Both the position numbers and the translations under genes were made by a program. From Bacilli bacterium (lineage in GTDB: Bacteria > Bacillota_I > Bacilli_A > RF39 > UBA660), in contig JAUNMV010000004.1 of assembly GCA_030531695.1 (NCBI GenBank), positions 19,121 through 59,779 of the forward strand: DNA of 40,659 nt. Reading direction: 5' to 3'. The notes beneath the pieces were generated by a model, which was not told the origin of the DNA, made no database searches, and was given only the letters and a program-made list of their open reading frames with translations. Positions 1,502 through 36,807 of the stretch are shown piece after piece. Each line of letters starts with the position of its first letter. Within the stretch, counting starts at the first letter, position 1.

Positions 1502-3064
1502 ATGAAAAAAAGAAGAACAAGACGTATTTTATTACTAGCTATAGTACTATTTATTAGTATTGGTTTTGCAGTGCTTTCAAGTAGTACTTCTATTAATGGC
1601 TTATTTAACTTTACTCAAAATAGTTGGAGTATAGTATTCAAAAATGTAGTAGTAGATGATACTAGTGTTACAAAAACTGCTCCTACAATTAATCAAGATG
1701 AAGATACTATTACTTTTAGTGCAGAACTTAATAAACCTGATGATTATTATAGCTTTAATGTAGATGTAGAAAATGATTCTACATTAGACGCTATGTTAGG
1801 TAATATTACAATTAGTGGAATAACATCACAATATTCAGATTATTTAGATTGTATCGTAACTTATTCTAATGGAGTAACTCCTAATCCTAATGATATATTA
1901 TATAAAACTGCGAGAGTTACTTTTAATATTAAATTACTTTATAAAGATATAAATACTAGTCAAATACCAGCAAATACTTTAAGTCCTACAGTATCAATCA
2001 CTATAAATTATCGTCAAGCAAATAAAAACGCTGTTTTTGTAACTGATACAAATCATTGGAATTTTGACTATACTGGTAACTCACAAACATTTACTCCAAT
2101 AAAAACAGGTAACTATAAAATAGAGTTATGGGGAGCAAGTGGTGGTAAAGGAAAAATTGGTTCTTCTTCAACTATCGATGAGATAGGCGGTAATGGTGCA
2201 TATACTAATGGTAAAATTACTTTAAATAAAGAAACTAATTATTATGTTTATGTTGGTGAAAAGGGTTTAGATAATTTAGGTCCTTCATTTGTTGCTGGTG
2301 GTTGGAATGGTGGAGGAACTGGAAATGTAGATGTTGATAATAATGATTTTGCTGGCTCTGGTGGTGGAGCTACGGACTTTAGATTAACGTCTGGTTCTTG
2401 GGACGTGTTTAATTCTTTAAAGAGTAGAATAATGGTTGCTGCCGGAGCTGGTGGAGGACATACTGGATATAATGAAGAAAGAAATTTACCAATTAATAAA
2501 CAAGGTATGAATGGTGGAGGCCTTACTGTTACTGGAAATTTAGCAACTAGTAGAGTTATTTGGACTCCAATTGTAAATCAATTTGCTGGAAATGTTTTTG
2601 GTAAAGGTTTTGATGGAACTAATATAACTGATACTATACATGCTGCTGCCGGTGGAGGTGGTGGCTATTATGGTGGTATTAATAAAAAAATATTCACAAA
2701 TGATGCATATTCTAGTAGTAGAGCAGCTGGAGGTTCTTCATTCATATCTGGTCATGCTGGATGTGTTGCAATAGTTGAATCATCTACAGAAGATAATATT
2801 ACTTTTAAAACTGATAGTAATAGTGTTGCATGTAATAGTGATACATCTGCTACTTATAATTCTTTAGGATATAATACTGATCCTAAATGCAGTATTCATT
2901 ATAGTAATAAAGTATTTACAGATACTGTTATGATTGATGGATCTGGATATAGTTGGACTACTGTAAAAGGAGATACTGTAGTTGGTATGCCTAATAAGAA
3001 TGGAATTGGTACTGTTACTGGTAATACTGGTAATGGTTTTGCTAAAATTACTTTAATGAATTAG
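1502..3064 (+). CDS. Secreted or anchored glycine-rich surface protein, SipW-type N-terminus (paralogue 1)
   Basis: Predicted exported protein of 520 aa. A basic start (MKKRRTRR) is followed by a hydrophobic segment at about residues 9-27 (LLLAIVLFISIGFAVLSS), of the kind found in SipW-dependent TasA/camelysin-like proteins. Residues about 40-170 look like a beta-sandwich (WSIVFKNVVV, then an NDSTLDAML stretch). From about residue 175 there is a glycine-rich domain full of GGxGGG and AAGAGGG runs, ending NGFAKITLMN, which resembles the ALK/LTK-type glycine-rich family (Pfam PF12810). RBS is AGAGGG at 1492-1497. It has its own promoter and terminator. A paralogue at 15273 has the same architecture and ending. 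No LPXTG sorting signal is seen. Function is unknown; surface location is inferred. Confidence 0.75.
   Translation: MKKRRTRRILLLAIVLFISIGFAVLSSSTSINGLFNFTQNSWSIVFKNVVVDDTSVTKTAPTINQDEDTITFSAELNKPDDYYSFNVDVENDSTLDAMLGNITISGITSQYSDYLDCIVTYSNGVTPNPNDILYKTARVTFNIKLLYKDINTSQIPANTLSPTVSITINYRQANKNAVFVTDTNHWNFDYTGNSQTFTPIKTGNYKIELWGASGGKGKIGSSSTIDEIGGNGAYTNGKITLNKETNYYVYVGEKGLDNLGPSFVAGGWNGGGTGNVDVDNNDFAGSGGGATDFRLTSGSWDVFNSLKSRIMVAAGAGGGHTGYNEERNLPINKQGMNGGGLTVTGNLATSRVIWTPIVNQFAGNVFGKGFDGTNITDTIHAAAGGGGGYYGGINKKIFTNDAYSSSRAAGGSSFISGHAGCVAIVESSTEDNITFKTDSNSVACNSDTSATYNSLGYNTDPKCSIHYSNKVFTDTVMIDGSGYSWTTVKGDTVVGMPNKNGIGTVTGNTGNGFAKITLMN
1541..1584 (+). repeat. Nucleotide-conserved signal-peptide segment, copy 1
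   Basis: Matches 15312-15355 with three mismatches over 44 nt; the first 29 nt are identical, including third codon positions. Both copies encode the hydrophobic core IVLFISIGFAVL of the two glycine-rich proteins. The rest of the two genes is much more diverged. Confidence 0.85.
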
Positions 3065-15272: not shown

Positions 15273-16679
15273 ATGAAGAGACATAATACTAAAAAATTAC
15301 TTATTATAATTATAGTACTATTTATTAGTATTGGTTTTGCTGTGCTTACAAGTAATTTAAATGTTGCTACTACTCTTACATTTAGAGAAAATGTATGGGA
15401 TATTCACTATGAAAATTTAAAATTAATTGATTGTAGTAGTGATAATCCTACTCTTACTTTAGATAATGATAAAGATGAAATTACTATTGGTAATACTTTT
15501 GATATACCAACTGATTATATAGAATTTAGTTTTGTTGTATTAAATGCTGGTACAATTGATGCAGTACTTAATCAAATTAATGTTAATTTAACAACAGAAC
15601 AACAAAAATATATAGAATATAGTTTTAAGTATGTTTTAGATGATAGTACTGTTGCGGTAAATGATAAATTGTTTGCTGGTCAAGGAAAACTAATTAAAGC
15701 AAGATTTTCTTATAAGTATGATATTAATGAGTTTTCTACTTTAGATAATACTTCTATAACTATAGGATTTAAGTATATACAACCTCAGTCTAGTTCTGTT
15801 ACTACATGGAATTATGAATATACTGGTACTGAACAAGTATTTTATGTACCAAAGAATGGAATATATAAAATAGAAGCATGGGGAGCACAAGGTGGAAGCT
15901 GTTCTAATCCTACTACTACGTATATAGGTGGATATGGAGGATATTCTGTTGGTACAATAAGTTTAACTAAGAATCAGGCGATATATGTAAATGTAGGTGG
16001 ATCTGGTGAAGATTCTAAGGGATTAGATTATATTTATAACCTAGAGGGTGGTTATAATGGTGGAGGATCTGGTGGTAAGAATGGTAAAAATGAAAACACT
16101 TCCACTTGGGCTGCTGGTGGTGGTGCGACACATTTAGCTATTTCAGATGGTGTTTTATCTTCTTTTTCTTCTAAAATTTCAGATTTATTACTCGTATCTG
16201 GAGGTGGCGGAGGATCAGGATGCTATATTACAAATGGATTTGTTGGTGGTGCCGGTGGTGGATATATAGGCAATAGTGGAAATGGTGTCACACCTCGAGC
16301 GACAGGTGGTACACAAAGTAATGGAGGTACTTCACATAATCCAGACTTACATATACCTGCATCTTTTGGCTTAGGAGCTTCCGTAGATAATAGTAAATTT
16401 GATACTATTTGGAATTCAGCCGGCTCAGGTGGCGGCGGTGGTTACTATGGTGGTGGTTTAGGATTTAATCAATATGGCTCTGCTGGAGGTGGCTCTGGAT
16501 ATATTGGAAATACTAATTTAAGTAATAAAGTTATGTATTGTTATAATTGTCAATCATCAGAAAATGAACAAGATGAAACTCATATAAAAACAAGAAGTAC
16601 TACTAATGTAAATTCTACTGCTACTAGTAATTATGCTAAAATTGGTAATGGTTTTGCTAAAATAACATTTGTTAGTTAA
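15273..16679 (+). CDS. Secreted or anchored glycine-rich surface protein (paralogue 2)
   Basis: 468-aa paralogue of the protein at 1502. The hydrophobic N-terminal segment (LLIIIIVLFISIGFAVLTS, residues about 7-26) is followed by a beta-sandwich-like region with NVWDIHYENL and NAGTIDAVL, then from about residue 175 a glycine-rich domain (GGYGGYSVG, SGGGGGSG, GSGGGGGYYGGG). It ends NGFAKITFVS, like paralogue 1. RBS is TAGGAGA at 15261-15267. No cell-wall sorting signal is seen. It heads a run of four closely spaced genes with a membrane thioredoxin, an SDR reductase and a YnbB-like enzyme; the CNCQ-type Cys pair near the C-terminus (CYNCQ) could be a substrate for the thioredoxin next door, which is speculative. 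Confidence 0.75.
   Translation: MKRHNTKKLLIIIIVLFISIGFAVLTSNLNVATTLTFRENVWDIHYENLKLIDCSSDNPTLTLDNDKDEITIGNTFDIPTDYIEFSFVVLNAGTIDAVLNQINVNLTTEQQKYIEYSFKYVLDDSTVAVNDKLFAGQGKLIKARFSYKYDINEFSTLDNTSITIGFKYIQPQSSSVTTWNYEYTGTEQVFYVPKNGIYKIEAWGAQGGSCSNPTTTYIGGYGGYSVGTISLTKNQAIYVNVGGSGEDSKGLDYIYNLEGGYNGGGSGGKNGKNENTSTWAAGGGATHLAISDGVLSSFSSKISDLLLVSGGGGGSGCYITNGFVGGAGGGYIGNSGNGVTPRATGGTQSNGGTSHNPDLHIPASFGLGASVDNSKFDTIWNSAGSGGGGGYYGGGLGFNQYGSAGGGSGYIGNTNLSNKVMYCYNCQSSENEQDETHIKTRSTTNVNSTATSNYAKIGNGFAKITFVS
15312..15355 (+). repeat. Nucleotide-conserved signal-peptide segment, copy 2
   Basis: Counterpart of 1541-1584: 29 identical nt followed by 15 nt with three mismatches, encoding the shared hydrophobic core of both glycine-rich proteins. 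Confidence 0.85.
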
Positions 16680-16693
16680 AGGAGATAGATAAT

Positions 16694-17116
16694 ATGACAG
16701 GTGCTAAGAATGAAGAGTTTATTAAATTTAGAAATAATATTTTAATTGTTTTAGCAGTTACACTTATTTGTATTGCTTTTGTAATATTATTATTTGGTAA
16801 AGGTATAAATAGTGGACCTATTAATAAAAAAATAAAGAATAAAGAGACATTTCTTATTTATATAACTAGTTCTGATTGTGATAAATGTAGTGAAGTAAGA
16901 GATTTTCTTGATGAGAAAAATGTTACTTATGAAGAAATATATGAAACTAGTAGTCAAGCAAAAAAGATATTTAAAGAATACAATTTTGTATTAGATGGAA
17001 CTGTTGCTCCGGCTATAGTATTTGTTTATAAAGGTAAAATTTATTCTAACTTTGTTAATATAAAAGATACTGAAGAGTTAAGTGAATTTGTTGATCATTA
17101 TAAATTAAGTAAGTAG
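16694..17116 (+). CDS. Membrane-anchored thioredoxin-like protein
   Basis: Probable thiol-disulfide protein outside the membrane. Residues about 15-36 form one transmembrane helix (NNILIVLAVTLICIAFVILLFG), followed by a thioredoxin fold: beta-strand TFLIYITSSDC, active site CDKC (about residues 58-61), helix, then VAPAIVFVYKG with the expected cis-proline. The CxxC is near the start of the fold as in thioredoxins and glutaredoxins. It is 140 aa, with RBS AAAGGAGAT. It is co-transcribed with the glycine-rich protein before it (14-bp gap) and the reductase after it (8-bp gap). Substrate unknown. Confidence 0.8.
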   Translation: MTGAKNEEFIKFRNNILIVLAVTLICIAFVILLFGKGINSGPINKKIKNKETFLIYITSSDCDKCSEVRDFLDEKNVTYEEIYETSSQAKKIFKEYNFVLDGTVAPAIVFVYKGKIYSNFVNIKDTEELSEFVDHYKLSK

Positions 17117-20691: not shown

Positions 20692-21189
20692 ATGATAAAA
20701 AGAAGAAAACTATGGTATATGATGTTATTTAGTATAATATTTGTATTAAGTATTTATTATGTTACAATGCCTAATGATTTATTAAGTACTAAGATTAATA
20801 TAGGAAAGAAAGATAGTGATAAAGTTATTGAGACAATAGAAGAGGCTTCTTCACTTGTAGCTTTAAGAGTTAATCTTCAAGAGGAAAGACAAGAAGAGAT
20901 GACTGTTTTACAAAAACAATTAACAGAAGATTTAACTAGTGATGAAAAAAATGAAGCATATGAGAAGATTAAATATTTAAATCAAATAGAATCTTTAGAA
21001 GAAGAAACAGAGACTAGAATTAATAAAGAATTAGGATTAGATTGTTTTGTGAAAATAGATAATACTAATATTAATACTGTTTGTATTTCAAGTAAGCATG
21101 ATGCGGCTTTAGCTAATAAAGTAATGAGATTAATACAAAATGGTTTTGATACTAAGAAATATATTACTGTTAAATTTCAGAAAAAATAG
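20692..21189 (+). CDS. spoIIIAH: SpoIIIAH-like sporulation protein
   Basis: Mother-cell component of the SpoIIIA-SpoIIQ feeding-tube complex. The 165-aa protein has a short cytoplasmic basic start (MIKRRKLW), one transmembrane helix at about residues 8-25, an extracellular coiled-coil with Glu-rich EEASSLVALRVNLQEERQEE, and a C-terminal region ending VMRLIQNGFDTKKYITVKFQKK-like, as in the ring-building domain of SpoIIIAH. RBS AGAGGTGA. In Bacillus it is the last gene of the eight-gene spoIIIA operon; here it stands alone with gerE next. Family call is from overall pattern, so moderately sure. Confidence 0.78.
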   Translation: MIKRRKLWYMMLFSIIFVLSIYYVTMPNDLLSTKINIGKKDSDKVIETIEEASSLVALRVNLQEERQEEMTVLQKQLTEDLTSDEKNEAYEKIKYLNQIESLEEETETRINKELGLDCFVKIDNTNINTVCISSKHDAALANKVMRLIQNGFDTKKYITVKFQKK

Positions 21190-21190
21190 A

Positions 21191-21217
21191 ACTTATATAT
21201 TATTTAGTCATAGATTA
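21191..21217 (+). promoter_or_regulatory. Candidate sigma-K promoter for gerE
   Basis: AC (21191-21192), 16-bp spacer, CATAGATTA (21209-21217): a full match to AC-N16/17-CATAnnnTA. gerE is sigma-K transcribed in Bacillus. Caveat: the start site would fall near 21224, trimming the SD AGGTGA. Confidence 0.5.
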
Positions 21218-21231
21218 CTATAGGTGATAAT

Positions 21232-21438
21232 ATGACTAAATCTATTTTAACTAATCGTGAAAAAGAAATCTTTTCTTATTTAATTAATGATTATAGTACT
21301 AAACGTATTTCTTATCTTTTAGGTATAAGTGAGAAGACTGTTAGAAATCATATTTCTAATGTTATTCAAAAATTAGGTTCTAATAGTAGAAGTGGGGCAA
21401 TACTAGAATTAATTAAATTAAATGAATTTACTTTATAG
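21232..21438 (+). CDS. gerE: GerE-like LuxR-family regulator of late spore genes
   Basis: Small DNA-binding regulator of 68 aa, essentially one LuxR-type helix-turn-helix. LTNREKEIFSYL, then the recognition region ISEKTVRNHISNVIQKLG, and SRSGAILELIKLNEF follow Bacillus GerE along its whole length (GerE is 74 aa). GerE activates and represses coat genes in the mother cell after sigma-K. RBS AGGTGA. Flanked by the SpoIIIAH-like gene and gerM; gerE and gerM lie in the same neighbourhood in Bacillus too. A non-sporulation LuxR-HTH protein is the alternative, made less likely by context. Confidence 0.85.
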   Translation: MTKSILTNREKEIFSYLINDYSTKRISYLLGISEKTVRNHISNVIQKLGSNSRSGAILELIKLNEFTL

Positions 21439-21461
21439 CGTACTAAATTGTACGTTTTTTT
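21438..21461 (+). terminator. Rho-independent terminator of gerE
   Basis: Stem GCGTAC (21438-21443) with GTACGT (21450-21455), 6-nt loop, T-run. It begins at the last stop-codon base. Confidence 0.75.
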
Positions 21462-21469
21462 CATATATT
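21462..21469 (+). promoter_or_regulatory. Candidate sigma-E-type -10 for gerM
   Basis: CATATATT directly after the gerE terminator, the same element as before the spoIIIAH-like gene. No convincing -35 is seen. Confidence 0.3.
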
Positions 21470-21483
21470 TTAATGGTGATAAT

Positions 21484-22389
21484 ATGATTAGAAGAAGAGC
21501 TATTAGAAAGATATTTATTACTACATTATCATTATTTATTATATTAACTGTATCTACTATTACTAATTTTAAAGATACTTTAAGTGTTAATGTTCAGTTG
21601 GAAGATGTTACTAATCTTACTAATGGATGTGTATATCTTCTTAATGATAAAGGTTATTTAGTTAGAAAAAATATATTTATAGATAGTAATAATATTACTG
21701 ATAGTATTAGAAAAGTTATTAATTATTTAAAGATTAATAATGATGAGAAGTATTCTTCTAATTTCATTGGGACTATTCCTAGTACTTGTATTTTAAATGA
21801 TCTATTATATGATGAGGGTTATGTTACTTTAAACTTTAGTAAAAGTTTTTTAGATAATAATAATATTGATATTTGTGTTTCTTCTATTGTTTATAGTATT
21901 TATGCTTTAGGTGATGTAGAAGGTATTACTATATTAGTAGATGATAGTTATTTAGATGGTTATCCTAAAATTATAAAGAAAGATATTGATATTAATAAAG
22001 AGAGTTTTTTAACTAGTAGAGAAGATATTACTAAAGTAGTTATTTATTATTTGATGAATGATAATTTTGAGTATTATTATGTACCTGTTACTAAGTATTT
22101 AAATGATTCTAGAGATAAGATTAATATTATTGTAGATCAATTAGCTAGTAATACTTCTTATGATTTAGTTAGTCTTGTGAATAGTAATATAGAGTTGATT
22201 AATTCATATGAAGAAAATGATATGATGGTTCTTAATTTTAATAATTATTTATTTGATAGTGATAATAAAGTACTTGAAGAAGTTTTATATTGTATATCTT
22301 ATTCTGTGTTTGATAATTATGATGTGGATATGGTTATGGTGGAAGTAGATGGTAAAAATATATATTCAATTGATAGGAAAAGCTTATAA
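21484..22389 (+). CDS. gerM: GerM-like sporulation/germination protein with two GerMN domains
   Basis: Exported or membrane-anchored protein of 301 aa. An N-terminal hydrophobic segment (about residues 9-28) is followed by two similar units: one ending in EGYVTLNFSKSFL...SIVYSIYALGDVEGITILVDD and one with NDMMVLNFNNYLF...LYCISYSVFDNYDVDMVMVEVDG. This tandem is the GerMN architecture of Bacillus GerM, made under sigma-E and needed for sporulation and germination. The classical lipobox Cys of GerM is not seen; the segment looks like an uncleaved anchor. An upstream in-frame ATG (21448) lies in the gerE terminator loop; GGTGAT before ATG 21484 decides the start. Confidence 0.82.
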   Translation: MIRRRAIRKIFITTLSLFIILTVSTITNFKDTLSVNVQLEDVTNLTNGCVYLLNDKGYLVRKNIFIDSNNITDSIRKVINYLKINNDEKYSSNFIGTIPSTCILNDLLYDEGYVTLNFSKSFLDNNNIDICVSSIVYSIYALGDVEGITILVDDSYLDGYPKIIKKDIDINKESFLTSREDITKVVIYYLMNDNFEYYYVPVTKYLNDSRDKINIIVDQLASNTSYDLVSLVNSNIELINSYEENDMMVLNFNNYLFDSDNKVLEEVLYCISYSVFDNYDVDMVMVEVDGKNIYSIDRKSL

Positions 22390-23882: not shown

Positions 23883-25949
23883 TTGAAAATAGTTTTACAG
23901 GAAGGTAGGAGTGACTGCGGTGTTTGTTGTCTTCTTAGTATTATTAGATATTATGGTGGAGGTGTATCTTTAGAATACTTAAGAGAGATTACTAATACTA
24001 ACCGTGATGGTGTTTCTGCCTATAATTTAATAGAGGCTAGTAAAAGTTTAGGATTAGATGCTTATGGCGTAACAGGCAAACTAGAAAATATAGAGACTGA
24101 TAACTTACCGTGTATTGCCCATGTAAATGTAGGTTCTAATTATCAACATTTTGTAGTTATCTATAAAATATCAAATAATAAAATAATTATAATGGATCCA
24201 GCTAAAGGTAAGAGAATATTATCTTTATCAGAATTTAGATTAATGAGTACAAATAATTATATATTTATTAAATATAAGAAAAAATTACCAGTATTAAATA
24301 ATAAAAAATATATGAATCACTTTATACTAAGTTATATTAATAAAAATAAAATAATTCTTGTCATGCTATCCTCTATTTTATTTAATAATTTAATACTAGA
24401 TATAATTTTATCTTTTAATTTTAAATATATTATTACGTATTGTATTAATTATAAGAATTCTATAAATATATATCTTATATCTTTAGTAATGGTATTTATC
24501 AGTTTAATTAGTTATTTACTTAATATTATTAATAAAAAAATTCTATTTAAAATTATTTTTATGTTTGATTTTAATACTACCTGTAGTACATTTAAACATC
24601 TTCTCTTACTTCCATATTATTACTATAAGAATAGAACGGTAGGTGAGGTATTATCAAGATTTAGTGATCTAACTACTATTAAGAATTACTTAATAGAAAT
24701 TATTTCTTCTTTTCTAAGTGATTTAATTAGTTTAATTATATTTTTTATATTTATTTTTAATATTAATAAGTTACTAAGTTTATTTATTATTATTTATTTT
24801 TTCACATCCATTTTCATCTCATTACTTAGTAATAAAAGAAAAAAGAAATTGTATAAAAATGTTAAATTAAGTGAAGAAGCTATCAATAGTTATATAGTAG
24901 AATCTATTAGTAATGTAGACACTACTAAAAGTAGTCATTTAGAGAAGAGATTTATTGATAAGTTTTCTTTAAAATATAAGAGGTTTTTAAATTATAATTA
25001 TGATTATTTAAATAATGTAGATTTCTATAATATGTTTTTAAAATTAATAGAAGATTTATTATTAATTGTTACTTATGGTTATGGTGGATATTTAATTGTA
25101 TGTAATAAGATTGGATTAAGTGACATGATTGTCTTTATTACTTTTTTTACTTATAGTCTAAGATTAATTAATAAGATAATTAATTTGATTATGGAGTATT
25201 CTACTTTTTGTGTTTCTTTAAATAGAATAGAAGATATTTATTCTTTATGTAGAGAAGATTTTTCTAAGAGTTATTTCTTTTTACCATATGATATGAAGGG
25301 GAATATTCTTTTTAATAATTTATCTTATAAAATTGATAATAAAATCTTATTTAATAATATTAATTTAACTATTAATTATGGTGATAAAGTATTATTCTTT
25401 GGAAATAGTGGAAGTGGAAAGAGTACTTTATTTAAGATGTTACTTAGATATATAGATGTAGATTATTCTATGATTAATATTAATGGTATAGATCTTAATC
25501 ATTATCATTTAGAAAATATTAGAAGATATATTACTTATGTTAGTTCTAATGAATTATTATTTAGTGATACCATTTATAATAATATTTGTTTATATAAAGA
25601 GATTAGTGATGAAGATTTTTTAAAAGTTATAAAGATCTGTAGAGTAGATCTTATATTTGGAGAAGATTTAAATAATTATAATAGTATGTTAGAGGAGAAT
25701 GGTTTCTTACTTAGTAGTGGTGAAAGACAGAGAATTATTTTAGCAAGAAGTATACTTAGAGGTAGTAATATTTATATTTTTGATGAAGCTTTTGGTCAAA
25801 TAGATATTGATTTAACTAATAAAATAATAAGTGATTTATTTGAATATTTAAAAGATAAGACAGTTATAGTGATAAGTCATAGAAATAATTCTAAGAAATA
25901 TTTTAATAGGATACTTAAGTTAGTAGATGGTAAGATTTATGAAAAATAA
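23883..25949 (+). CDS. Peptidase-containing ABC transporter (C39 peptidase, bacteriocin export)
   Basis: Cleaves double-glycine leaders and exports the peptide. The C39 domain has oxyanion Gln6, catalytic Cys12 in RSDCGVCC, His near 89 (NYQHFVV) and Asp near 105 (MDPAKG). Several transmembrane helices follow at about 150-440. The ATPase domain has Walker A GNSGSGKST (about 506-514), signature LSSGERQR (about 610-617), Walker B IYIFDEAF (about 630-637) and VISHR. At 688 aa it is full length. The start is TTG at 23883, chosen because QEGRSDCG must lie close to the N-terminus; AGGAGG is 12 nt upstream, longer than ideal. Two double-glycine peptides downstream are the evident cargo. No clear sigma-A promoter was found. 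Confidence 0.95.
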   Translation: MKIVLQEGRSDCGVCCLLSIIRYYGGGVSLEYLREITNTNRDGVSAYNLIEASKSLGLDAYGVTGKLENIETDNLPCIAHVNVGSNYQHFVVIYKISNNKIIIMDPAKGKRILSLSEFRLMSTNNYIFIKYKKKLPVLNNKKYMNHFILSYINKNKIILVMLSSILFNNLILDIILSFNFKYIITYCINYKNSINIYLISLVMVFISLISYLLNIINKKILFKIIFMFDFNTTCSTFKHLLLLPYYYYKNRTVGEVLSRFSDLTTIKNYLIEIISSFLSDLISLIIFFIFIFNINKLLSLFIIIYFFTSIFISLLSNKRKKKLYKNVKLSEEAINSYIVESISNVDTTKSSHLEKRFIDKFSLKYKRFLNYNYDYLNNVDFYNMFLKLIEDLLLIVTYGYGGYLIVCNKIGLSDMIVFITFFTYSLRLINKIINLIMEYSTFCVSLNRIEDIYSLCREDFSKSYFFLPYDMKGNILFNNLSYKIDNKILFNNINLTINYGDKVLFFGNSGSGKSTLFKMLLRYIDVDYSMININGIDLNHYHLENIRRYITYVSSNELLFSDTIYNNICLYKEISDEDFLKVIKICRVDLIFGEDLNNYNSMLEENGFLLSSGERQRIILARSILRGSNIYIFDEAFGQIDIDLTNKIISDLFEYLKDKTVIVISHRNNSKKYFNRILKLVDGKIYEK

Positions 25950-26322
25950 ATATGAAGAATTTAATGTAGTAATATTTTTTCTTATTATTACTTTTATATT
26001 AGAAATTATTTTATTTATTTCTTTAATTAATATTAATATAAGTACTTATAAAGTATTTAGTGGCGTTATTAGTAATGATAATTGTATTAGTTTATTAGTT
26101 GATAAAAAAGAGTTAGAAATATTACGAGATAATAAGAGACTATTTTTTAATAATAAAACTTATGACTATGAGATAGAAAGTATAGATAGGGAGTCAATTG
26201 ATAATTATATATTAGTTAATATAAAGACTAAAATTAAAACTAAAAAATCTGTTATAAATGTTTCTATACTTGATAATAAAATATCAGTTATTAAAATATT
26301 TAAGATTATTTGGAAGGAGTGA
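25939..26322 (+). CDS. Small membrane accessory protein of the bacteriocin exporter
   Basis: Predicted partner of the ABC transporter, 127 aa from ATG 25939. Residues about 9-31 form one transmembrane helix (VVIFFLIITFILEIILFISL), followed by an external beta-rich domain (KVFSGVIS..., FFNNKTYDYEIESI). Topology (short inside, one helix, beta domain outside) is like a much shortened HlyD/LcnD membrane-fusion protein without the coiled-coil and lipoyl domains; homology is not established. It overlaps the transporter gene by 11 nt, so the two are translationally coupled, and its TGA stop is 3 nt before the first peptide gene. An in-frame ATG at 25927 is the alternative start. Confidence 0.7.
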   Translation: MKNKYEEFNVVIFFLIITFILEIILFISLININISTYKVFSGVISNDNCISLLVDKKELEILRDNKRLFFNNKTYDYEIESIDRESIDNYILVNIKTKIKTKKSVINVSILDNKISVIKIFKIIWKE

Positions 26323-26325
26323 AAT

Positions 26326-26484
26326 ATGAATAAAATTAATAATGAGGAACTAACAAAAATAAAGGGTGGATTTACTATGAATGGGTGGACATTTTTAGGT
26401 ATTGCGGCAGCTATAGTGTTCATTTCAGGAATAATAGAGGGTATAACAAATCCGGAAAGGTGTATAAATCATGGAGAAAATTGA
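26326..26484 (+). CDS. Double-glycine bacteriocin precursor, peptide A
   Basis: 52-codon gene. Leader MNKINNEELTKIKGG has the classical pattern: hydrophobic at -12, -7 and -4, Glu at -8, Gly-Gly at -2/-1. The predicted mature peptide is 37 aa, starts FTMNGWTFLG, has a hydrophobic helix with a GxxxG motif (GIIEG), and ends in a polar tail with one Cys (PERCINHGEN). RBS AAGGAG (26314-26319) lies 6 nt before the ATG. It follows the exporter genes and overlaps peptide B by 14 nt. Features fit one half of a class IIb two-peptide bacteriocin; activity is inference. Confidence 0.87.
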   Translation: MNKINNEELTKIKGGFTMNGWTFLGIAAAIVFISGIIEGITNPERCINHGEN

Positions 26485-26641
26485 TGATAGTAGACTATGT
26501 AATATAAAAGGTGGAGCAGATATTACATCAACTTTAGTTAATGCTTTTACAAATGTGATTAAAGTTCTTTTTGATGCAGGACATAGTGTTGGTTCGGCAA
26601 TAAGAAGATTTGCTGAAGGTGATTTATGTCCTCTAGATTAG
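26471..26641 (+). CDS. Double-glycine bacteriocin precursor, peptide B
   Basis: 56-codon gene. Leader MEKIDDSRLCNIKGG repeats the leader pattern of peptide A (Ile -12, Leu -7, Ile -4, Gly-Gly), with the same 15-residue length and the same IKGG end. The predicted mature peptide is 41 aa: ADITSTLVNAFTNVIKVLF, then GHSVG (a GxxxG motif), a basic SAIRRFAEG stretch, and one Cys near the end (GDLCPLD). It starts inside the end of peptide A in another frame, preceded by AAAGGTG. The pairing of two GxxxG peptides with one exporter is the hallmark of class IIb bacteriocins. The Cys in the leader (-6) is unusual. Confidence 0.87.
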   Translation: MEKIDDSRLCNIKGGADITSTLVNAFTNVIKVLFDAGHSVGSAIRRFAEGDLCPLD

Positions 26642-26769
26642 ATATTTTTAAGATATTTTTTATAATTATTATGATTCCTATCGTAGGCTTTATATTTCAA
26701 CATATTTTTGAAATTGGTATTCATTTGGGTACTTATTTGCGAATTTTGACGAATTTTCATTGTTTTTAG
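26626..26769 (+). CDS. Small membrane peptide, candidate bacteriocin immunity protein
   Basis: 47-codon ORF overlapping the end of peptide B by 16 nt, with SD AAGGTG at 26616-26621 and ATG at 26626. Sequence starts MSSRLDIFKIFFIIIMIPIV, a basic end followed by one membrane helix, then FEIGIHLGTYLRIL, an amphipathic stretch with its own GxxxG (GIHLG), and ends at a TAG. No leader with Gly-Gly is present, so it is not a third cargo. Position right after the structural genes and membrane character are what immunity proteins of two-peptide bacteriocins show. The function is inferred from position; coding status rests on overlap, SD and length. Confidence 0.62.
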   Translation: MSSRLDIFKIFFIIIMIPIVGFIFQHIFEIGIHLGTYLRILTNFHCF

Positions 26770-26851: not shown

Positions 26852-27052
26852 ATGGCAACTAAAGTTACTGTTAGAGGAAATTTAGATCAAGCTCTAAGAA
26901 AGTTTAAACAAAAAGTAGCAAGAGACGGTGTCCCTTCAGAATGGAAAAAAAGAGAAGCTTACGATAAACCAGGGGTAAGAAGAAGAGCTGCTAAAAAAGA
27001 GGGAATTAAAAATTCTCAAAAAAGAAATCGTGCTAATAATAGAGATTATTAA
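26852..27052 (+). CDS. rpsU: 30S ribosomal protein S21
   Basis: Small basic ribosomal protein near the 3' end of 16S rRNA that helps base-pairing with mRNA. 66 aa; the S21 pattern is VRGNLDQALRKFKQKVARDG, then KREAYDKPGVRRRAAKKEG. The frame is open from a TTG at 26822, but AAGGGAGGG with a 6-nt spacer fixes ATG 26852, which also lies properly downstream of the promoter. It begins the conserved rpsU-yqeY block. A terminator follows, so it forms a single-gene transcript with partial readthrough at most. Confidence 0.95.
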   Translation: MATKVTVRGNLDQALRKFKQKVARDGVPSEWKKREAYDKPGVRRRAAKKEGIKNSQKRNRANNRDY

Positions 27053-27107: not shown

Positions 27108-27545
27108 ATGGTAGAAAAGTTACAAAAAGATATGATTGAAGCTATGAAGAATCATGAAAAAGAAAGATTAACTGTAATTCGTATGGTTAAAGCAGCTATG
27201 GCTCAAGAAAGAATAGATCATAAAAAAGAAGAAAATGATGAGTTATTAATTGATGTTGTTAATAAACAAATTAAAATGAGAAAAGATTCTATTACTGAAT
27301 TTGAAAAAGGTGGAAGACAAGATCTAGTTGAAAAGACTCAAGCTGAAATAGATGTATTAATGAATTATTTACCAGAACAATTATCTCATGAAGAAGTATT
27401 AAAAATAATTGATGAGATATTTAGTGAAGTTAATCCTACAGGACCTAAAGATATGGGTAAAGTTATGGGACCTGCTCAAGCTAAACTTAAGGGTCGTGCT
27501 GATATGAAGGAAGTTTCTTCAATTATAAGAGAAAAATTACAATAG
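27108..27545 (+). CDS. yqeY: GatB/YqeY domain-containing protein
   Basis: Stand-alone YqeY protein, 145 aa, related to the tail domain of GatB that contacts tRNA; exact function unsettled. Family marks are LQKDMIEAMKNHEKERLTVIRMVKAA, VVNKQIKMRKDSITEFEKGGR, MNYLPEQLS, and the Gly-rich GPKDMGKVMGPAQAKLKGRADM near the end. GAGGTGG at 27096-27102 and a 5-nt spacer favour ATG 27108 over a GTG at 27099 that lies in the SD. It follows rpsU as in most Firmicutes. Confidence 0.92.
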   Translation: MVEKLQKDMIEAMKNHEKERLTVIRMVKAAMAQERIDHKKEENDELLIDVVNKQIKMRKDSITEFEKGGRQDLVEKTQAEIDVLMNYLPEQLSHEEVLKIIDEIFSEVNPTGPKDMGKVMGPAQAKLKGRADMKEVSSIIREKLQ

Positions 27546-27599: not shown

Positions 27600-27839
27600 T
27601 TGAGAGATTATATAAATAGATATTTTAATGATTTAGATTTTAGATATACTGTTTATTCTAATATGTTACATATTATTAATTATAATAAGATTATTTCTTT
27701 AGAAGATAACCGTATAAGTATTCTTTATAATAATAAGAGAATTATATTTAAGGGTAATAATTTTATTTTGAAAAAGATGTTAGATAATGAAGTATTAATT
27801 AGAGGGGTAGTGTTAGGGGTAGAAGTAAATGATATCTAA
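27600..27839 (+). CDS. yqfC: YqfC/YabP-family sporulation protein
   Basis: 79-aa protein of the YabP/YqfC family, made in the mother cell in Bacillus and needed for efficient sporulation. Pattern: short N-terminus, MLHIINYNKIISLEDNRISI, then RIIFKGNNFILKKML, VLIRGVVLGVEV. The whole protein is a beta-rich single domain. The start is TTG 27600: AGGTGA (27589-27594) fits it with a 5-nt spacer, whereas the GTG at 27591 lies inside that SD. The gene overlaps yqfD by 11 nt, as coupled genes do. Confidence 0.82.
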   Translation: MRDYINRYFNDLDFRYTVYSNMLHIINYNKIISLEDNRISILYNNKRIIFKGNNFILKKMLDNEVLIRGVVLGVEVNDI

Positions 27840-28965
27840 AATTACTTTAAAGATTACTGGTAGAAATAGTGATTATTTTACTAATATTTTAATAAGTAAA
27901 AATATAAATTTTAGTGTTATAAATAAGACTAGAAAAGAATTAATTATTACTGTTAGTGATAGAGATTATAAGAAGATTAAGAGTATTAAAACTAGTTATA
28001 AAATTAAAGTAATTAGAGTATATGGATTACTATATATTAAATATTTATTTAAGAATTATTTATCTTTTATTATTAGTTTTTTTATTTGTCTTATGTTAGT
28101 TATTATTACTAGTAATTTAATATTTGAAATTGATATTAATAGTAATAATACTAATTTAGAGAAGACTATATTAGAAGATTTAAAAGTAAGGGGAATATCT
28201 AAATATAGATTTAAGGTTAATTATGATAAAAAAAGAAAAATAGTTAATGAAATACTTAATGAAGAAAGAGATACTATAGAATGGTTAGAGATAGAAGAAT
28301 ATGGTACTAAGTATATTATTAATGTGGTTGAAAGAATTAAGAATACGGATAAAGAAGAATGTATTCCATCTAATATAGTTGCGAAGAAGGATGCAATTAT
28401 TACTAGTGTAGAGGCTTATAGTGGAGAAGTATTAACTTATATTAATAAGAGTGTTAAAAAGGGAGATATATTAATTAGTGGAAGAATTTATAATAAAGAA
28501 GAAGTAGTTAATACTAAATGTAGTAGAGGTAGAGTATTTGGAGAAGTATGGTATCAAGTATTTGTAGATTTACCTAAACATTATTATGAAGAGAATGTTA
28601 CTGGTAATGTAGAAAGAAGAATAGGAATAGATTTTTTTAATTATTCTAGTAAAAGTAGTTATAAGACTTATAAAAGAAAAGATATTGATATATATGATAA
28701 TAAATTATTACCTATTAGATTGTTTTATACTGAATATTTAGAAACTAATGTTATTGATAAGTATTTTACTATTGATAATGTAGATGAATATGCATTAGAA
28801 AAAGCTACTACTAAGATGCTTAATAAGATAGGTAAGGATGATAGGATTGTACTTAAAAAGATTTTGAAAAAAGAGGAGAAAAATAGTAGAATAATAGTAG
28901 GGGTATTTTTTAAAGTGAATGAAGATATTACTAAAGTAGAAAACATTATAGATAATGGAGAGTGA
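27829..28965 (+). CDS. yqfD: YqfD, stage IV sporulation-type membrane protein
   Basis: Mother-cell sporulation protein, 378 aa. N-terminal cytoplasmic beta-rich domain (MISKITLKITGRNSDYF), one transmembrane helix at about residues 77-103 (FIISFFICLMLVIITSNLIF), then the extracellular YqfD domain with EWLEIEEYGTKYIINVVERI, SNIVAKKDAIITSVEAYSGE and KKGDILISG. It follows and overlaps yqfC, as in Bacillus. It ends in TGA, 3 nt before the VanZ-family gene. Confidence 0.88.
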   Translation: MISKITLKITGRNSDYFTNILISKNINFSVINKTRKELIITVSDRDYKKIKSIKTSYKIKVIRVYGLLYIKYLFKNYLSFIISFFICLMLVIITSNLIFEIDINSNNTNLEKTILEDLKVRGISKYRFKVNYDKKRKIVNEILNEERDTIEWLEIEEYGTKYIINVVERIKNTDKEECIPSNIVAKKDAIITSVEAYSGEVLTYINKSVKKGDILISGRIYNKEEVVNTKCSRGRVFGEVWYQVFVDLPKHYYEENVTGNVERRIGIDFFNYSSKSSYKTYKRKDIDIYDNKLLPIRLFYTEYLETNVIDKYFTIDNVDEYALEKATTKMLNKIGKDDRIVLKKILKKEEKNSRIIVGVFFKVNEDITKVENIIDNGE

Positions 28966-34677: not shown

Positions 34678-36807
34678 ATGGTTAAGAATAATAAGGGTTT
34701 TACTTTAATTGAAGTTATAGTTACTATTACAATATTAGGTATTGTTACTTTTATTGCGCTACCGTTATTATCTAATTTGAGTGGTACTTTAAACAATAAG
34801 AAATTTGATTCTTATAATAAGTCTATTGAGTCTGCTGCTAAATTATATACTGATTCTTATAGTGCAGATATGTTTGGATATTATGTATATGGTTGTCATA
34901 AGATACCTTTTTCTGTACTTGAAGGAAAGAATCTTGTTAAGAAAATAGGTGATAAGAAATCTGATTGTAGTAATGATTCTGGTACTTATGTTTATGTTAT
35001 TAAGATGGGAGATCATTATGTTTATGAGTCTTCTATAGTATGTGTAGATTCTCATGGAAGAGAAATATATAATTATAGTTCTATTACTAATCCTACATGT
35101 GTTACTGATATTGATGATGGAGCTCCTCATATTGTATTAGATCCCAATTCTTCTGGTCCTGTTAGAAATTTAGATGTTAATGTACAATTAGATGGAAGAT
35201 TTGGATACGGAGTTAATCAAAAAGTAAAATATGAATGGTTAGATTATTCTAAGAGTCCTATAGGTAGTGATGGCACTATCAGTTATAAAAATGATCCTCA
35301 AGATACTGAATATCCTTTACTTAGTAAAAAGGTTTCTTCTCCTACAGGTTTAACTGGTACTTATTATTTAAAAATTACACCTATTAATGTATCTAATTAT
35401 ATAGAACAAGATTTTAATACTACTGAATATGTTTCGGGTGAATATATATTTGATAATATTCCTCCTACTATAAATGCTTCTAGTGATATTAATAAGAGTA
35501 GTAATAATTTAAGTATTACTTTAAGTGATAATATTAAATTAAAGAAATATGTTATTACTAATAGTAATACAGCTCCATCTAGTAGTGATTCTAGTTGGAT
35601 TAATGTTGGTAATGTAAAAGATTATTCTACTGAAGTTACTAAGTCTACTGGTTATTATTATATTCATTGTTTAGATGCAGCTGGTAATTTAAAAACTTTA
35701 GGTATAGATGTAAAAGTTGATAATCCTACAGCTCCTGTTATAACTGGTTCTCCTAATGGTTGGAAGAATATGAATAGAATTGTATGGATTGCTACTCCTA
35801 CTTCTACATTTACAAGTGTTGTTAAATATCAATATTGTAAGAGTAATACTAATTCTAGTAGTGGATGTACATGGACTGATTTATATAATAATACTAATGG
35901 AGTTACTGCTAGTGGATTAAATGATGTGGCATTTTATCATTCTAGATATAGTGATTTAACTAATGCTTATTTAGGTGATGTTAATGGGTTAAATACACAT
36001 TATAATACTTATGGTAGAAATGAAGGTAGAGTTACTAGTGATGGTAGTTGGTTAAGAGTATCTCATAATTTCTCTGATCAGGGTAAATACTATGTATTCT
36101 TTAGAGCTTATACTTCAGGTGGGCTTTATTCTCCTGCTTCTAATGGTGTATTAATACAAATAGATAAAACAAAGCCTACTTTAACTAGTTATTCTGTATG
36201 GTCACAAAGAGGTGGCTATAACGATAGATATATTTATACTAAACCTGTTGGTAGTGATACAGGTGGTAGTGGATTATATCAAGTATGTTGGTCTTTTAGT
36301 AATAGTTATAGTGGTACTTGTAGCACAACTAATGGTTATACATTTAGTGGAGATACTGGTTATAATACTGGTTCTGGTTCTACTAGAGGTGTTTACTTCT
36401 ATGCAAGAGATGGTGCTGGAAATGTTTCTCAAATATATGGTACTAGTTATCAAGTATATAGAACCTGTTCTAAGACTAGAATTAATTGTAATTATGGATG
36501 GGATGATACAGCACATAGACCTGAAACTGTTTCTCATGGTAATGGTTGGGGTAAGAAAGGTCGTTATTGCTGGGTAATAGATACTGTACATGAGAGTAGA
36601 GGTACTTTATATAAATGTAGTGAAACTCTTAGAACTTGTCCACATGATGCATGGTGTGATAGAGATGGAAGAACAAATATTCCTTTTGATAAAACTAATT
36701 GGGATAATTTAAAACATTGGCAAGGTTATGGCGGTACATGTAGTGTTCCATTCTGTGAAAGTGTTCTATGTGCAAATGATGCTTGTTGGGATGCTTCTTA
36801 TTATTAG
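34678..36807 (+). CDS. Very large type IV pilin-like surface protein
   Basis: 709 aa. The N-terminus MVKNNKG-FTLIEVIVTITILGIV is a class III (prepilin) signal: seven-residue leader, cleavage before Phe8, Glu at mature position 5, then the hydrophobic assembly helix. Pilins are normally 120-200 aa; this one continues with beta-rich, Ig-like repeats (DNIPPTINASSDINKS; DKTKPTLTSYSVW). An inserted segment at residues about 419-451 has FYHSRYSDL and HYNTYGRNEGR. The C-terminus is rich in Cys and Trp (YCWVIDTVHESRG, CPHDAWC). Tyr/Ser/Thr/Asn-rich throughout. No prepilin peptidase, PilB or PilC gene is in the window. Probably an adhesive tip or minor pilin; function inferred. Confidence 0.8.
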   Translation: MVKNNKGFTLIEVIVTITILGIVTFIALPLLSNLSGTLNNKKFDSYNKSIESAAKLYTDSYSADMFGYYVYGCHKIPFSVLEGKNLVKKIGDKKSDCSNDSGTYVYVIKMGDHYVYESSIVCVDSHGREIYNYSSITNPTCVTDIDDGAPHIVLDPNSSGPVRNLDVNVQLDGRFGYGVNQKVKYEWLDYSKSPIGSDGTISYKNDPQDTEYPLLSKKVSSPTGLTGTYYLKITPINVSNYIEQDFNTTEYVSGEYIFDNIPPTINASSDINKSSNNLSITLSDNIKLKKYVITNSNTAPSSSDSSWINVGNVKDYSTEVTKSTGYYYIHCLDAAGNLKTLGIDVKVDNPTAPVITGSPNGWKNMNRIVWIATPTSTFTSVVKYQYCKSNTNSSSGCTWTDLYNNTNGVTASGLNDVAFYHSRYSDLTNAYLGDVNGLNTHYNTYGRNEGRVTSDGSWLRVSHNFSDQGKYYVFFRAYTSGGLYSPASNGVLIQIDKTKPTLTSYSVWSQRGGYNDRYIYTKPVGSDTGGSGLYQVCWSFSNSYSGTCSTTNGYTFSGDTGYNTGSGSTRGVYFYARDGAGNVSQIYGTSYQVYRTCSKTRINCNYGWDDTAHRPETVSHGNGWGKKGRYCWVIDTVHESRGTLYKCSETLRTCPHDAWCDRDGRTNIPFDKTNWDNLKHWQGYGGTCSVPFCESVLCANDACWDASYY

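Follow-up and report, generated by a model that had tools for sequence, protein, structure and literature searches.

Class IIb bacteriocins of the lactococcin G/enterocin 1071 and lactobin A/cerein 7B families combine two adjacent peptides, each with a double-glycine (GG) leader and a GxxxG motif, with a C39-peptidase ABC exporter and an adjoining small membrane protein. Most class IIb peptides have no cysteine (PMC10100652). The two peptides of gallocin A from Streptococcus gallolyticus carry disulfides, and its immunity peptide, GIP, was modelled as resembling the bacteriocin peptides and proposed to compete (PMC10100652). For carnobacteriocin XY, immunity is assigned to CbnZ, a protein of 42 aa (PMC6957408).

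The locus described here has this class IIb layout. It lies in a stretch of 40,659 nucleotides, analysed as a whole and called the window below, from a member of RF39, uncultured gut Bacilli with small genomes in which amino-acid pathways are missing (PMC7301438, PMC10868615).

Layout of the locus

The first-pass annotation of the window described an exporter followed by two short overlapping genes, taken as a class IIb bacteriocin locus. Both short genes were found where it had placed them, after the exporter, whereas two further genes of the same interval, encoding an accessory protein and a small membrane protein, had been overlooked. The features are as follows:

23883..25949, forward strand: C39-peptidase ABC exporter (PCAT-like, 688 aa), identified by its Pfam domains; nearest solved structures PCAT1 and ComA
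25927..26322, forward strand: accessory protein, 131 aa, with an N-terminal transmembrane helix and a small beta-barrel domain
26326..26484, forward strand: pep1, GG-leader peptide of 52 aa (mature form about 37 aa), with conserved GxxxG, P and C-terminal Cys
26471..26641, forward strand: pep2, GG-leader peptide of 56 aa (mature form about 41 aa), with GxxxGxxxRR and C-terminal Cys
26626..26769, forward strand: pep3, leaderless membrane protein of 47 aa resembling the C-terminal half of pep2; candidate immunity protein
26852..27052, forward strand: rpsU (bS21), conserved downstream neighbour and site marker, outside the system
27108..27545, forward strand: yqeY, conserved downstream neighbour outside the system, after rpsU in most loci

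The pep1 and pep2 genes overlap by 14 nt, and pep3 starts 16 nt inside pep2. The details that the annotation had given for the peptides were accurate, namely 15-residue leaders (MNKINNEELTKIKGG and MEKIDDSRLCNIKGG) hydrophobic at positions −12, −7 and −4, one GxxxG per mature peptide (GIIEG and GHSVG) and exactly one cysteine in each mature peptide; the pep2 leader holds an additional one.

The exporter qualifies as a PCAT, with its C39 peptidase (E 3e-34), ABC membrane (E 1e-24) and ABC ATPase (E 1e-21) domains all over the Pfam cut-off, and it aligns with PCAT1 (4ry2) at E 2.5e-80 over residues 6-687, ComA (8hf4/8hf7) being also among its nearest solved structures. It is similar to, and not a member of, the Mbov_0121-type mycoplasma exporters (NF045998; 310.9 vs a curated cut-off of 500), as the accessory protein is to the MAG1140 family (NF045999; 17.8 vs 35 bits). 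A search of the literature on MAG1140, RF39 bacteriocins and C39 proteins in mycoplasmas found nothing relevant. Space for one accessory gene occurs in 61/72 loci. The AF2 model of the accessory protein (pLDDT 92.7) has a helix at 9-34 followed by six strands, and would be compatible with a possible mini membrane-fusion protein. A fold search gave no match at E < 0.001, and the unconvincing VIA Z scores of the barrel (6-8) were tied among membrane-fusion proteins, F1-ATPase barrels and poxvirus polymerases; as modelled, the barrel is a common small one and no proof of membrane-fusion kinship.

In pep2 (alignment A5, 71 sequences) the leader's last glycine (G15), G37, G41, R46 and C53 are invariant, and in pep1 (alignment A6, 68 sequences) G39, P43 and C46 are invariant and F32 and G35 nearly so; a GxxxG or GxxxG-like motif is present in 159/162 pep1 and 170/170 pep2 sequences. 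In genome pairs selected by exporter identity, pN/pS is 0.34 in mature pep1 and 0.30 in mature pep2, compared with 0.21 in the C-terminal 250 residues of the exporter. The mature peptides are under purifying selection, with signs of diversification absent. Profile alignment of pep1 with pep2 showed similarity mainly at the leader, and the AF2 model of pep2 (pLDDT 80.9) consists of one long helix, 20-49, which includes GxxxG.

The window's peptides reach no curated bacteriocin family tested over its cut-off: pep1 scored 19.9 bits against NF038034 (lactococcin G-beta/enterocin 1071B; cut-off 37) and 18.7 bits against PF10439 (Bacteriocin_IIc; gathering cut-off 27.1), and neither peptide matched TIGR03949 (lactobin A/cerein 7B) at E <= 1. 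Among the pep1 relatives, 46/68 match TIGR03949 at E <= 0.01 and 38/68 have a weak NF038034 match. PDB sequence searches with both alignments gave no credible match. Some loci hold additional GG peptides, as in genus g13, where tandem pep2-like copies occur (L180 2878-3308), and in L083, where a third GG peptide (1526-1642) stands where pep3 would be.

Distribution and genomic site

A profile built from four pep2 sequences matched 357/385 sampled genomes of the order, 288/305 of the near-complete ones and 112/118 genera, almost always once; some weak matches may be other GG peptides, and most of the matches listed are near full length. With about 93% of the order's sampled genomes matched, the initial observation is far beyond chance. 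A control search for the ribosomal protein bS21 matched 352/385 genomes, 281/305 near-complete ones and 109/118 genera. Since pep2 is about as frequent as bS21 in these incomplete genomes, it is a core gene, and the cassette is a core, single-copy gene set of the window's family and not a patchy bacteriocin. In a class-wide search, full-length pep2 was limited to that family, matches elsewhere spanning the leader and a few residues, and full-length pep1 matches were likewise limited to it.

The cassette is conserved in 70 further loci, pep1 and pep2 nearly always following the exporter. The order exporter, accessory, pep1, pep2, pep3, rpsU, yqeY also occurs in same-genus genomes and in the metagenome-assembled genome L019 ("uncultured Bacilli bacterium"), the one true cassette that emerged from a contig scan with the exporter, which retrieved mostly generic ABC exporters. 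A search for relatives within the genus found few. In 51/72 loci bS21 lies at most 1.3 kb downstream of the cassette on the same strand, and the cassette site is mostly upstream of rpsU-yqeY. Neither a plasmid search with pep1, nor a scan of viral contigs with a single pep2, nor a phage search yielded a relative.

The exporter was present in 10/10 peptide-positive genomes checked, with a second, weak C39 match (218 aa) in only one of them, and 13/20 pep2-negative genomes are without any C39 protein. The finding that the first-pass annotation had set against itself, relatives keeping the exporter without the peptides, thus did not emerge. In the other seven pep2-negative genomes, the exporter lies at a contig end in four (G119, G095, G221 and G203), divergent peptides are present in G207, the exporter is kept with no peptides adjoining it in G278, and G030 has only a weak C39 match within a 1073-aa frame.

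Other families of Bacilli contain GG-leader peptides of their own. In family f4 (GC 22-28%, mycoplasma-like), single peptides of 94-130 aa stand beside rplU/rpmA-like genes (L173, L175 and L181; pattern MEKLxxxxxREIxGGKGxSGALLNG... in L175 and L181), and represent a different conserved secreted peptide of another family. Two different families share a nearly identical GG-leader peptide (GGEAITxTxxxAV...CYRLFMSSxGxxTLPGGxxFxW), encoded between genes resembling valS and radC (L176 1151-1330, L177 3970-4149 and L178 4282-4458). Within the window, both flanks of the cassette (20692-22389 and 27829-28965) carry sporulation-type genes (SpoIIIAH-like, LuxR-type HTH, Germane domain and YqfD). Farther away are two paralogous secreted-looking proteins (1502-3064 and 15273-16679) with an ALK/LTK glycine-rich domain named for animal receptors (PF12810, E 4e-45 and 1e-36), and a 709-aa protein (34678-36807) that combines a prepilin N-methylation motif with a long tail containing Cys.

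Coupled cysteines and a pep2 look-alike

In 133 distinct pep1/pep2 pairs, counting only positions after GxxxG (four genomes carry an internal GVFCG cysteine) and deliberately including lower-scoring relatives, the C-terminal cysteine is present in both peptides in 121 cases, in neither in 12 and in a single one in none. Each cysteine trait changed five times when mapped onto a tree of exporter C-termini, and the independent pairs on well-supported branches were concordant in 4/4 cases; with n = 4 the sign test cannot get below 0.05, and the pairing rests on 4-6 independent events. One further loss, in L232 (genus g23), is not placeable on the tree. This co-occurrence is good comparative evidence for a pep1-pep2 disulfide, as the first-pass annotation had suggested, and an inter-peptide bond would be the simplest reading; each mature window peptide has no other cysteine to serve as partner.

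The cysteines might be coupled for another cause, for instance the loss of both tails in lineages where the function changed, which would be compatible with other readings of the peptides. Both C-termini are indeed truncated in several of the losses (L180, L221, L232, L240 and L241); however, the cysteines are absent from L226 and L204 although the tails are not short, sister genomes in g27, g13, g3 and g23 retain both cysteines, and the complete lack of discordant pairs also speaks against this explanation, which we consider rather unlikely. Elsewhere in the window (16694-17116) is a membrane-anchored glutaredoxin/thioredoxin-like protein with CxxC, which, by analogy with the role proposed for BlpT in gallocin A, is a possible disulfide catalyst for pep1 and pep2.

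The pep3 protein (alignment A7, 49 sequences) has no leader and one transmembrane segment; many members have a lysine-rich start, the hydrophobic stretch often contains LPI and is followed by GxxxGxxxR, and some members end with a C-terminal cysteine. In hhalign, the pep3 profile matched that of pep2 over the latter's C-terminal half (probability 94.5, E 8e-8, 37 columns), and GxxxG-anchored pep2-pep3 alignments scored 21.6, versus −4.8 (SD 0.4) when the pep3 residues were shuffled with the glycines kept. The same comparison of pep1 with pep3 detected no similarity. The score was higher for cognate pep2-pep3 pairs (23.8) than for non-cognate ones (21.6; permutation p 0.005), a difference to which shared genome ancestry can contribute. 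By these profile comparisons pep3 is homologous to pep2 in its C-terminal half and looks like a membrane-anchored mimic of it, whose GxxxGxxxR should face outward by the positive-inside rule. The gene is present in 47/72 loci and absent from 25/72, some absences leaving no space for it before rpsU.

A comparable arrangement occurs on the Streptococcus suis plasmid pD20_2 (NZ_CP102146.1), where an array annotated as class IIb encodes pep2-like peptides (hmmsearch E 3e-10 in a set of 15 proteins). The array (L299 1983-6592) comprises about twelve small peptides with GG leaders, several of them annotated as class IIb bacteriocin, with leaderless hydrophobic peptides interspersed; after a 54-aa GG peptide with IFDIGKQTGRALRKL comes one of 48 aa that has no leader and carries MFEVGKEVGQTLATL, the two having a similar [DE]xGKxxGxxL motif. 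Given the pep2-pep3 likeness, this leaderless look-alike and the model of the gallocin A immunity peptide, it is a reasonable proposal that pep3 is a candidate immunity protein acting by mimicry.

Function and relation to known systems

From the genes, leaders, motifs, conservation, cysteine coupling and pep2-pep3 homology, we propose that the cassette, fixed as core, encodes a membrane-active system of class IIb-like type with putative antimicrobial activity, in which a disulfide joins the two peptides and a mimic confers immunity; we give this reading about an even chance. The C39 exporter and the mini accessory protein would cleave the GG leaders and secrete pep1 and pep2, which would pair outside the cell through GxxxG helix contacts and the C-terminal disulfide, and the resulting unit would insert into the membrane of neighbouring cells and permeabilise it. 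The leaderless pep3, anchored N-in/C-out, would expose its own version of the pep2 motif (GxxxGxxxR) on the producer membrane and compete for pep1, thereby protecting the producer where pep3 is present. The ecological role might be nutrient release or competition.

The class IIb assignment of the first-pass annotation stands for the architecture, with two GG-leader peptides, a GxxxG in each and a C39 exporter. It is not established for "bacteriocin" in the ordinary sense: purifying selection acts on these core genes, which occur as one copy, and the likely immunity gene is lacking in about one third of the sampled loci. An ordinary class IIb bacteriocin, horizontally acquired and peculiar to this genome or genus, has the sequence architecture on its side; such a patchy trait is contradicted by a distribution over 357/385 genomes, nearly always as one copy and mostly at one site, and by searches that found none in viral contigs or phages and a sole, weak plasmid match in S. 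suis, so that we give this explanation scarcely any weight. GG leaders and C39 exporters also serve the ComC/BlpC pheromones, and the exporter resembles ComA, which raises the case of a signalling pair; but in the loci read no receptor kinase or regulator accompanies the cassette, and, to our knowledge, a pair of hydrophobic peptides that are conserved together and have coupled cysteines does not resemble the known GG pheromones. Because the cassette comes without a receptor, a pheromone is very unlikely.

The core single-copy status and the purifying selection, unusual for a bacteriocin, together with the absence of pep3 from 25/72 loci, count against the bacteriocin-like reading, and fit a conserved non-toxic complex, in which pep1 and pep2 would be exported, disulfide-linked and kept on the producer envelope, with pep3 as anchor or partner, for a house-keeping role in envelope, adhesion or development, the bacteriocin features being resemblance only. 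Near-universal occurrence in 112/118 genera at a frequency like that of bS21, the dispensability of pep3 and the fact that other Bacilli families have conserved single GG peptides of a different kind beside house-keeping genes agree with such a complex, and it stays the chief and a serious rival because pep3 is missing in about one third of the sampled loci. The two-peptide GxxxG design with a predicted helical pep2, the similarity of pep1 and pep2 to class IIb families and to the class IIb plasmid array, and a leaderless look-alike of the kind proposed for bacteriocin immunity all argue the other way, and we regard the non-toxic complex as credible, though on the improbable side. We tentatively suggest, with clearly less than even confidence, that these uncultured Bacilli with small genomes rely, as a whole family, on a core secreted membrane complex of two disulfide-linked peptides that the membrane-anchored mimic controls. 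The complex would be of class IIb bacteriocin origin and would now have an essential role, such as opening neighbours for nutrients or acting in the cells' own envelope.

Bacteriocins are regarded as accessory traits that are patchy and change fast, whereas the bacteriocin-like pair described here matches a ribosomal protein in its universality across more than 100 genera of uncultured Bacilli, which suggests an important function in interactions. From the coupled cysteines a covalent heterodimer is predicted, and the open literature searched yielded no report of an inter-peptide disulfide in a class IIb bacteriocin. The pep2-like membrane protein makes the question of two-peptide immunity directly testable with three short peptides.

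Compared with the class IIb families, with which it also has weak pep1 profile matches in common, the window's system differs in being core and single copy across a whole family, and in having one coupled C-terminal cysteine per peptide where most class IIb peptides have none. Like gallocin A, it would pair disulfide-bearing peptides with a look-alike immunity peptide; the disulfides of gallocin A are intramolecular, whereas the single Cys of each mature peptide here suggests a bond between them, and the pep3-pep2 likeness, unlike the modelled one of GIP, is visible in sequence profiles. Like pep3, CbnZ is a tiny hydrophobic membrane protein, which protects against a two-peptide bacteriocin; the available part of its report mentions no likeness to that bacteriocin, whereas pep3 shares GxxxGxxxR with pep2. 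The S. suis array has pep2-like GG peptides and, after one GG peptide, a look-alike that lacks the leader; it differs by its many variable plasmid copies and by the absence of the cysteine pair. The individual parts belong to a known kind; what is new is the core status, the coupled cysteines and mimicry at the level of sequence.
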